Part shown: one piece after another, positions 8,594-60,987 of the stretch
How the letters are laid out: the number at the start of each line of letters is the position of its first letter
Numbering within the stretch: the stretch's first letter is position 1
From: Bacteroidota bacterium
Lineage (GTDB): Bacteria; Bacteroidota; Ignavibacteria; Kapaibacteriales; Kapaibacteriaceae
Length of the DNA: 64,000 nt
Assembly (NCBI GenBank): GCA_018266735.1
Contig: JAFDZT010000002.1
Location: forward strand, 670,439-734,438
Direction: 5' to 3'
The notes under the pieces: generated by a model
Database searches by the model: none
What the model saw: only the letters and a program-made list of their open reading frames with translations
Told to the model about the DNA's origin: nothing
Program-made: the position numbers and the translations under genes

Positions 8594-8628
8594 TGACTTG
8601 TCACTCGTCACTTGTCACTCGTCACTCT
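8594..8628 (+). repeat. Heptanucleotide repeat TCACTYG, five units
   Basis: Five contiguous 7-base units (one degenerate TGACTTG, then TCACTCG, TCACTTG, TCACTCG, TCACTCT) sit between the divergent hydrolase and HMA genes, ending 13 bases before the HMA start codon. The same unit recurs at 22319-22409. Confidence 0.8.
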
Positions 8629-21101: not shown

Positions 21102-21422
21102 ATGGCAACTTCAACCGTCACCAAACAACGTTCCACCATGACGCGACAGCGTCTCATGGTGATCGGCATCCTGACGGTGATCGTGGCGCTCTTCGTGCTC
21201 TTCTCGTCGTATGGTGTGTTCACGCGCTTCGGACTTGAGACGGACAAAGGCACGCTGAACGCTCGCATTGCAGCGGAACGTCATATCGAAGATTCGCTGC
21301 GTGCCGAAATGCATCGCCTTGCCACGGACACCACAGAGATCGAGCGACTTGCCCGCGAGAAGTACGGCTATGTGCGCACCGGCGAAGAGGTCTTCATCAT
21401 CAAACGCGATCAACGTCCATGA
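21102..21422 (+). CDS. FtsB/DivIC-type septum formation initiator
   Basis: This 106-residue bitopic membrane protein has a basic cytoplasmic N-terminus, one transmembrane helix (about residues 18-37), then a coiled coil ('TDKGTLNARIAAERHIEDSL', 'MHRLATDTTEIERLA'). It ends in the family signature 'REKYGYVRTGEEVFII'. Such proteins pair with FtsL and FtsQ/DivIB to activate septal peptidoglycan synthesis. Its stop overlaps the ROK kinase start by 4 bases. Confidence 0.9.
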   Translation: MATSTVTKQRSTMTRQRLMVIGILTVIVALFVLFSSYGVFTRFGLETDKGTLNARIAAERHIEDSLRAEMHRLATDTTEIERLAREKYGYVRTGEEVFIIKRDQRP

Positions 21423-22315
21423 CCATTGGCATCGATATCGGTGGTACACATCTCAAGGCCGCTTGTGTGGATGCACAGGGCGAGCTGTTCGATGTGCGCA
21501 CCGTTCCGTCGCATGCCGATGAAGGCGTCGACGCGATGATCGATGTCATTGAGCGTTTGTATCGCGAGTTGGCCGGCACACGATCGCTGCCGCTGGGCAT
21601 CGGATGTCCGGGCGTCGTGGATCAGCACGGCACCGTGCACGATCCGCCCAACATGGTGGGCTGGGGTGTGGTGCCGCTTCGCGACATTCTTGCACAACGC
21701 TTGCAGTGCACCGTCGCCGTCGACAACGATGCGAACGTGGCCGCCATTGCCGAGGCCGATGCGGGCGCTGGTGCCGAAGTGAACTCATTCCTCTACATCA
21801 CGCTCGGCACGGGCATCGGCGGGGCCATTGTGATGGGTCGACACATTCTGCGCGGACCCACCGGTGGTGCGGGCGAGGTTGGCCACATCATCATCGACCG
21901 ACAGGATCGCAGCACCGTCACCGGTCATCAATGGCGCGCAGGCACGGTCGAGGAGTATGCAGGGCGGCAAGGCATTCAAGACCGCTACATCCTGGCCACC
22001 GGCATCGAGGCCAGCATCGAAGAGATCGCCGCAGAGGTTGCATCGCACAATGCAACGGCCATTGCCGTGCTCGACGCTGTTGCCGAAGACATTGCCCTTG
22101 CCCTGTGCAGCGCATGCGCACTGCTTGGCATGGGCACCATCATCATTGGCGGCGGCATCGCCGATGCCTTCCCGTCCATCATCGACCGGATCACGACGCA
22201 CATGCGTCAACGCGCCATCCCCACCATCGCCGCCGTGCTCGATGTTCGTCCCGCCACCTTCCGGAATCATGCCGGCATCATTGGCGCCGCCCTTCTCGTC
22301 CGGAGGTCTGCATGA
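21419..22315 (+). CDS. ROK-family sugar kinase (glucokinase-like)
   Basis: This 298-residue ROK protein has the ATP-binding 'GIDIGGTHLK' at the N-terminus, 'GIGCPGVVD', the catalytic Asp region 'VDNDANVAAIAEADAG' (about 91-106), 'ITLGTGIGGAIVMG' and 'GAGEVGHIIID' with the sugar/zinc-associated His146. The CxCGxxGC zinc motif that normally follows is absent; the equivalent stretch reads 'GHQWRAGTVEEYAGRQG'. This variant may bind substrate without the structural zinc. Its substrate is probably a hexose or acetylated amino sugar. The gene overlaps ftsB-like by 4 bases and the RidA-like gene by 4 bases (ATGA). Confidence 0.9.
   Translation: MTIGIDIGGTHLKAACVDAQGELFDVRTVPSHADEGVDAMIDVIERLYRELAGTRSLPLGIGCPGVVDQHGTVHDPPNMVGWGVVPLRDILAQRLQCTVAVDNDANVAAIAEADAGAGAEVNSFLYITLGTGIGGAIVMGRHILRGPTGGAGEVGHIIIDRQDRSTVTGHQWRAGTVEEYAGRQGIQDRYILATGIEASIEEIAAEVASHNATAIAVLDAVAEDIALALCSACALLGMGTIIIGGGIADAFPSIIDRITTHMRQRAIPTIAAVLDVRPATFRNHAGIIGAALLVRRSA
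22302..22306 (+). promoter_or_regulatory. Shine-Dalgarno GGAGG for the upstream RidA start
   Basis: GGAGG lies five bases before the ATG at 22312, inside the end of the ROK gene. The conventional RidA start at 22429 has no comparable sequence. This decides in favour of initiation at 22312 and translation through the heptad repeat. Confidence 0.6.
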
Positions 22316-22809
22316 ACGTCACTCGTCTCTTGTCACTCGTAACTCGTCACTTCCTACTCGTCACTTGTCACTTGTCACTTGTAACTCTCTTCTTGTCACT
22401 TATAACTCTCTTTTCTTGTACCAATCATATGCAACGAACCATCATCGTCCCCGATGCCCCTGCCGCCATTGGACCTTACTCACATGCTGCCGTGTGTTCC
22501 GGCACGATGCTGTACACGAGCGGACAGATCGGTCTGCTTGCTGACGGGACCATGGTCCCGGGCGGTGTGAAGGAGCAAACACAACGTGCGCTCGAGAACG
22601 TGAAGAACATCCTTGCATCGCAAGGTGCAACGATGAGCGATGTGGTCAAGACCACCGTGTTCTTGAAATCGATGAACGACTTTCAGGTGATGAATGCCGA
22701 GTATGCAGCGGCCTTTGGTGACCACAAGCCCGCACGTTCCGCCGTCGAAGTGGCACGACTGCCCAAGGACGCCCTTGTCGAGATCGAGGTGATCGCTTGT
22801 CTGCCCTAA
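22312..22809 (+). CDS. RidA/YjgF-family protein with repeat-encoded N-terminal extension
   Basis: From residue 40 (the ATG at 22429) the protein is a standard 126-residue RidA: 'AIGPYSHAAVCSGTMLYTSGQIG', 'TQRALENVKNILASQG', 'VVKTTVFLKSMNDF', and the active-site arginine in 'PARSAVEVARLP'. RidA enzymes hydrolyse reactive enamine/imine intermediates. Upstream, the frame stays open to an ATG at 22312 that overlaps the ROK stop and has a GGAGG five bases before it. The extra 39 residues are encoded by the heptad repeat. They read as a hydrophobic signal ending 'LITLFSC', which fits the PROSITE-style lipobox, so the product may be a lipoprotein. If the extension is not used, the gene starts at 22429. 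Confidence 0.8.
   Translation: MNVTRLLSLVTRHFLLVTCHLSLVTLFLSLITLFSCTNHMQRTIIVPDAPAAIGPYSHAAVCSGTMLYTSGQIGLLADGTMVPGGVKEQTQRALENVKNILASQGATMSDVVKTTVFLKSMNDFQVMNAEYAAAFGDHKPARSAVEVARLPKDALVEIEVIACLP
22319..22409 (+). repeat. Heptanucleotide repeat TCACTYG, thirteen units
   Basis: Thirteen consecutive 7-base units, mostly TCACTCG or TCACTTG with variants TAACTCT, TCTCTTG, CTACTCG and CTTCTTG, fill the space between the ROK stop and the RidA core. Because 7 is not a multiple of 3, the three-unit period reads as a seven-residue peptide repeat (SLVTRHx), and gain or loss of one unit shifts the frame. The same unit occurs at 8594-8628. Confidence 0.85.
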
Positions 22810-60573: not shown

Positions 60574-60987
60574 TCAGTCGATGGTTGCGATACACTTGAG
60601 CTCCACGGCGATCGGCGTTGGTAAACAGTTCACTTCGACGGTGGTTCTGCATGCCTGGACATGACCGAAGTGTTCGGCATAGATGGCATTGAACGGTTTG
60701 AAATCGTCCTTCATGTTCGTGAGGAACACTTGCACGTCGACGATGTTCTCCCACGACGAGCCGCAATCCTCCAGGATGAACCGGATGTTGCGGAACACAC
60801 TGTGTGTTTGTGCGACGATGTCGTACGAGCGGATGGTCCCGTCGGCATTGAGTTCAACGCCGGGGATCTCCGAACGTCCACGCTCGCGCGGACCGATGCC
60901 GCTCAGGAACAACAGGTTGCCAACACGACGTGCATGCGGATAGGCCCCGACGGGCTCGGCCGCTCTGTCAGAATTGAATACAGACAT
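60574..60987 (-). CDS. RidA-family protein, probable 2-aminomuconate deaminase
   Basis: This 137-residue RidA-fold protein resembles the 2-aminomuconate deaminase subgroup: 'GAYPHARRVGNLLFLSGIGPRERG', 'GVELNADGTIRSYDIVAQTHSV', 'NIVDVQVFLTNMKDDFKPFNAIY' and the active-site 'CRTTVEVNCLPTP'. That enzyme deaminates 2-aminomuconate in the lower kynurenine/2-nitrobenzoate pathway. The overlap with the aldehyde dehydrogenase gene (20 bases) supports the assignment. A general RidA imine hydrolase is the alternative. Confidence 0.8.
   Translation of the reverse strand: MSVFNSDRAAEPVGAYPHARRVGNLLFLSGIGPRERGRSEIPGVELNADGTIRSYDIVAQTHSVFRNIRFILEDCGSSWENIVDVQVFLTNMKDDFKPFNAIYAEHFGHVQACRTTVEVNCLPTPIAVELKCIATID

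Follow-up and report, generated by a model that had tools for sequence, protein, structure and literature searches.

A dispersed heptanucleotide repeat as a predicted export signal of RidA and other envelope proteins in a Kapaibacteriaceae genome

The stretch of DNA analysed here (the window, 64,000 nucleotides) contains a gene for a ROK-family kinase (Pfam match; 21419..22315, plus strand), the TGA stop codon of which, at 22313-22315, is overlapped by an ATG at 22312, with a GGAGG at 22302-22306, five nucleotides upstream of this ATG. The frame that begins here (22312..22809, plus strand) stays open to 22806 and encodes 165 amino acids, read as a heptad-encoded lipoprotein signal followed by a RidA domain on the basis of Pfam and TIGR matches and of lipoprotein RidA homologues in relatives. 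The heptads form an array of about 13 degenerate GTCACTY units (22317..22425, plus strand), composed of a stretch of about 13 heptads that TRF delimits to 22317-22408 (76-77% matches at a period of 7 or 21) and a degenerate tail. Translation from the ATG through the array into RidA gives MNVTRLLSLVTRHFLLVTCHLSLVTLFLSLITLFSC-TNHMQRTIIVPDAPAAIGPYSH..., and the array exit reads ...LFLSLITLFSC-TNHM. The predicted signal peptide, MNVTRLLSLVTRHFLLVTCHLSLVTLFLSLITLFS, spans 22312..22416 (plus strand), and the lipobox LFSC (L33-F34-S35-C36) lies at 22408..22419, with 22417-22419 as the codon of the predicted lipidated Cys. All coordinates of the original prediction proved correct, and the overlap with the ROK stop, the roughly 13 imperfect heptads and the LFSC lipobox were confirmed in the sequence.

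The RidA domain (22429..22806, plus strand), which begins after 22429 in the profile matches, is recognized by PF01042 (1.9e-41, 141.3 bits) and by TIGR00004 (7.1e-42, 142.5 bits, above the curated cut-off of 106.25). It contains the conserved block KPARSxVEVARLPxDxxVEIE, and the Arg of the KPARS motif, which we take to be catalytic, is conserved in an alignment to 5yu2. A second RidA-like gene in the window (60574-60987, minus strand) overlaps an aldehyde dehydrogenase gene and resembles 2-aminomuconate deaminase; it is cytosolic and thus provides no backup for RidA of the TIGR00004 type.

The original prediction had argued for the start at 22312 from the GGAGG ahead of it and from the lack of a ribosome-binding site ahead of 22429. 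Neither argument held, because SD-like motifs precede 3 of the 50 called genes in the window versus a background of 3.8%, and are thus at background level, which makes the GGAGG uninformative and its counterpart's absence weightless. Bacteroidetes are known for absent SD use (PMC6847099, PMC9976891). An SD-like GAGGA ahead of the internal Met in relatives was dropped on the same grounds, and the open frame through the array was rejected as evidence of coding, since the heptad lacks stops in all three sense frames. The start-context score, from a small model with 20 training genes, is 2.04 at 22312, higher than at the median training start, and -1.66 at 22429; it counts among the evidence for the predicted signal peptide. 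The coding scorer set the RidA start at 22429, probably due to the atypical codons of the repeat.

The sequence LFLSLITLFSC fits the PROSITE-style lipobox core, with Cys at +1 and a residue of [AGS] at -1. Counted from ATG 22312, the predicted lipobox Cys is residue 36, one position outside the classical 15-35 with K or R within the first seven residues (R5 is present), and counted from an in-frame TTG at 22330 it is residue 30. The h-region of the signal is broken by R12-H13 and H20.

One genome per species was compared, including a sister species of the same genus (G001), and a scan of genome contigs for RidA returned mostly distant RidA genes from other phyla. A TIGR00004-like RidA occurs once per genome throughout the family, and in at least 15 relatives it has a lipoprotein signal. 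In G001, G003, G012, G014, G016, G018, G019, G021 and others this signal is ordinary and heptad-free, with the start and the lipobox Cys at matching places, for example MRSLIAAAVLLILCSC-SSTRHTMIEPFN... in G001 and MNRISIALALCVLITSC-TTQRNAMITPFS... in G012. Such repeat-free forms occur in the sister species and in the genera g3, g6 and g7, so that RidA can carry a lipoprotein signal without the repeat; in several relatives, as in the genome under study, the RidA start and the preceding gene's stop codon overlap. These heptad-free lipoprotein signals at the matching place, together with the heptad-built signals of at least seven other genes described below, favour the original prediction's reading of the ridA heptads as a putative lipoprotein signal.

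The original prediction also held that the repeat had turned a cytosolic enzyme into an envelope lipoprotein. A gain of this kind in the lineage of the genome under study would fit the RidA tree insofar as its RidA is placed weakly beside the cytosolic RidA of G015 (91/78, unstarred) and a single clade of lipoprotein RidAs has a p-AU of 0.026. Against this, the sister species has a lipoprotein RidA without the repeat, a clade of these two RidAs is not rejected (p-AU 0.067), and four other genes have the repeat at the position of an ordinary signal in relatives. The tree of this short protein lacks resolution and does not by itself decide between gain and replacement of the signal. Replacement of an older signal by the repeat, which we infer for ridA, is the simpler reading because the same-genus G001 already has a lipoprotein RidA, and a gain from a cytosolic enzyme is rather doubtful. 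Of the original prediction, the reading of the heptads as a lipoprotein signal stands.

It should be noted that the two forms of RidA might coexist. The internal Met (22429..22431, plus strand), a possible second start, lines up with the start Met of the cytosolic RidAs of the genera g5 and g2, as does the internal Met of the lipoprotein forms. All lipoprotein RidAs seen in the family have a Met 3-8 residues after the Cys, including those in which its position has shifted (CTTMKTT, CTSMSTT). Initiation at 22312 would then yield a lipoprotein and initiation at 22429 a cytosolic RidA, a dual localisation that would suit genomes with one RidA of this type. The kept Met was also counted in its favour because AUG codons close to starts are otherwise depleted in Bacteroidetes (PMC6847099). 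However, the start context at 22429 is poor and the Met could be kept by mere ancestry, so that we give dual localisation a tentative place, at somewhat less than even chances.

Other signal-bearing RidA genes were seen at greater distance. The RidA of G004 (L048), in another genus, has an odd, repeat-like presequence (TGTCAATCTCT units) ending in a SLFAC lipobox (LFACQTM), which is possibly a decayed heptad-built signal. An order-level family (f2) contains more RidA genes with lipoprotein signals (L156, L157, L160) or possible Sec signals (L158, L161-L163), mostly in genomes that have a further RidA copy. Judged from these sequences, export of RidA seems to have evolved more than once; a search of the open-licence literature for exported RidA found no paper.

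The array at ridA belongs to a family that is dispersed over the genome, with 359 GTCACTY array matches (one mismatch allowed) versus none for the reversed control, and with 10 matches in the window versus 0.06 expected. The genome has at least 90 arrays, and 90 were read with their flanks, taken as sampled stretches of the genome. They sit tight against neighbouring genes; 76 of 90 are intergenic, and their orientation to the downstream gene is unbiased (37 sense, 38 antisense). A second array in the window (8596..8627, plus strand) precedes a gene whose signal peptide is ordinary, and is not exapted. Whichever of the three sense frames is read, the heptad encodes the same peptide, VT(R/C)HLSL, without stops, whereas the opposite strand, GAGTGAC, has a TGA in every frame. 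Since 7 leaves a remainder of 1 on division by 3 and the peptide is stop-free in three frames, the array is ready-made coding material.

No array with the exact pattern was found in the sister species, and arrays are absent from most relatives as well, but abundant in a subgroup of g3 and in a distant family (f29) of the same phylum. An identical GTCACTY family is plentiful in G235, from that distant family, and missing from most genomes between it and the genome under study, a patchy occurrence that suggests horizontal spread or convergence. No paper on the heptad sequence itself was found in the open-licence literature.

Several further arrays have noteworthy positions. Four (L220, L226, L234, L248; contigs C8 and C13) end exactly at a start codon, and this GTCACT-ATG junction puts an A at -3, a favourable base in SD-less Bacteroidetes; an ATG lies within 12 nt of the 3' edge in 12 of 90 arrays versus 7.7% in the control. 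At L184-L186 (contig C7, 93300-120000 and 151500-155600), a series of long genes resembling one another shares the last 25 or so codons, DIKGKGLMNTYWLE, preceded by short arrays of the heptad and of other short repeats (GTGTCCCACGAA), which look as if they marked duplication junctions; the shared endings bear a passing resemblance to class III nucleotide cyclases. Another kind of low-complexity repeat (TTACTTCTCT-like, reading ...SLFLLFSFSFP...) adjoins heptad arrays upstream of genes at L173, L222 and L237.

On reading the 90 arrays, at least seven further genes were found in which an array runs in frame into an envelope protein and would supply its signal peptide. They encode an OprM-like outer-membrane efflux protein (L233; OEP, PF02321, 2.1e-42; MNLSLVTRYSSLVTRHSSLLLCHLSLLTLLVGC-SMAPRYERP), a lipase-like alpha/beta hydrolase (L243; Pfam; ...LVTLFLVSC-STIPSRL), an endonuclease/exonuclease/phosphatase (EEP) lipoprotein (L242; Pfam; MNVTRHLSLVTLFLSLVTLFSC), an M28 peptidase with a non-lipoprotein signal (L224; Pfam; MNVRHFSLVTLSLLCVTCHSLRVTA), a paralogous pair beginning SNPIVLWEAP... 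(L182; no Pfam match) and a small lipoprotein (L179; no Pfam match). By sequence, 7 of the 8 heptad-derived signals are of the lipoprotein class. Four of the seven were checked against relatives, namely the lipase, the nuclease, the peptidase and the efflux protein, and in each case the mature protein can be aligned with that of relatives, where the signal ahead of it is free of repeats (13 relatives for the lipase, G001 included), with the Cys or the mature start in register. Signal replacement in these four genes is shown at the level of aligned orthologues.

The same tendency is seen when all 90 arrays are considered in three frames. Of the 32 frames that run on into coding sequence, 6 have a lipobox near the array exit, versus 4 of 238 others (Fisher p=2.6e-4); one of these four is from the second paralogue at L182, probably a coding frame as well. 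Within the signal frames, the stretch encoded by the array exceeds in hydrophobicity both the two remaining frames of those arrays (p=0.0035) and the frames of other arrays (p=0.0004), p-values that are supporting only because the set of signal frames was chosen by eye. An ATG within 15 nt of the 5' edge combined with an open frame through the array was found for nine arrays, six of which are at the listed signal-peptide genes. Among 30 loci read in other repeat-bearing genomes (G008, G010, G022, G235), none had a convincing exapted signal, and exaptation is thus shown only in the genome under study.

These results bear on whether the array at ridA is translated at all. It could be a noncoding leader, with RidA cytosolic from 22429 and an accidental lipobox; most arrays are indeed intergenic, a heptad without stops keeps any frame open, the profile domain starts after 22429, and some relatives (g5, g2) have cytosolic RidA. 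Yet the start context prefers 22312, lipoprotein RidAs with a matching Cys and start occur in the same genus and in g3, g6 and g7, lipoboxes are enriched in the coding frames at array exits, and seven similar genes exist, four of them with orthologue support. A noncoding leader is therefore very unlikely.

We consider it highly probable that the ridA heptads, derived from a genome-wide intergenic family, are translated as a Sec/lipoprotein signal, that RidA is at least partly an envelope lipoprotein and that at least eight genes are alike in this respect. The ridA array, between start codon and lipobox, would encode the n- and h-region of the signal. The 7-nt unit, free of stops on the sense strand, would yield the weakly hydrophobic (VTRHLSL)n whatever the frame, and because the heptad is open in every frame, arrays at gene starts can take over a signal region in any phase. 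R and H near the cleavage site would then be replaced by L and F (VTRHLSL or VTCHLSL to VTLFLSL), and the lipobox would be completed by S or G, both small, just ahead of the Cys, the Cys at ridA stemming from the TGT of a heptad-like CTTGT. Translation, export and lipidation of the heptad signals are predicted from sequence.

One unit gained or lost would, by arithmetic, shift the downstream frame, and slippage of 7-nt units could thus switch the lipoprotein form on and off. In common with simple-sequence contingency loci, the RidA array is a tandem repeat in the 5' end of a gene with a unit not divisible by three; unlike them, it is degenerate (76-77% pure instead of a pure tract), and thus a poor substrate for slippage, and its consensus unit is stop-free in three frames. 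A phase-variable switch, the idea of the original prediction, is accordingly most improbable. A broader proposal, in which the heptads are a live signal source, with arrays at gene starts repeatedly creating, replacing and perhaps reversibly switching the signals of envelope proteins and with RidA as both lipoprotein and cytosolic protein, strikes us as improbable too, if slightly less so.

Several known systems have features in common with these arrays. Rickettsia palindromic elements are dispersed noncoding repeats that are tolerated and translated inside genes; they are palindromic and lie within mature proteins, whereas the arrays described here are tandem heptads that would form export signals. 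Signal peptides are permissive to random sequence, which explains how a hydrophobic peptide derived from a repeat can work; the present case differs in being a natural, recurrent replacement in one genome. The STRR heptanucleotide repeats of filamentous cyanobacteria form dispersed 7-bp tandem arrays, mostly intergenic, and we know of no report that they serve as signal peptides. The heptads described here share with them the dispersed 7-bp arrays and the mostly intergenic position, in different organisms. STRR repeats have been used for fingerprinting (PMC5088731). A search of the open-licence literature for repeats becoming signal peptides found no paper.

The scope of the phenomenon is wider than one odd RidA, as a noncoding heptad appears to have repeatedly become export signals in this genome. 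It would be a natural and repeated origin of protein targeting signals from a noncoding tandem repeat, for which orthologues show the version of the relatives, and a stop-free unit with a length that is not a multiple of three and with one peptide in all frames makes an unusually efficient source of new N-termini. RidA of this genome has the fold family of the RidA/YjgF enamine deaminases (TIGR00004) and the conserved PARSxVEVxxLPxxxxVEIE block; canonical members are cytosolic, whereas those of its clade have a lipoprotein signal. Thus, a protein normally regarded as cytosolic, and present here in one copy of its type, is predicted to be carried in the envelope as a lipoprotein throughout a bacterial family.
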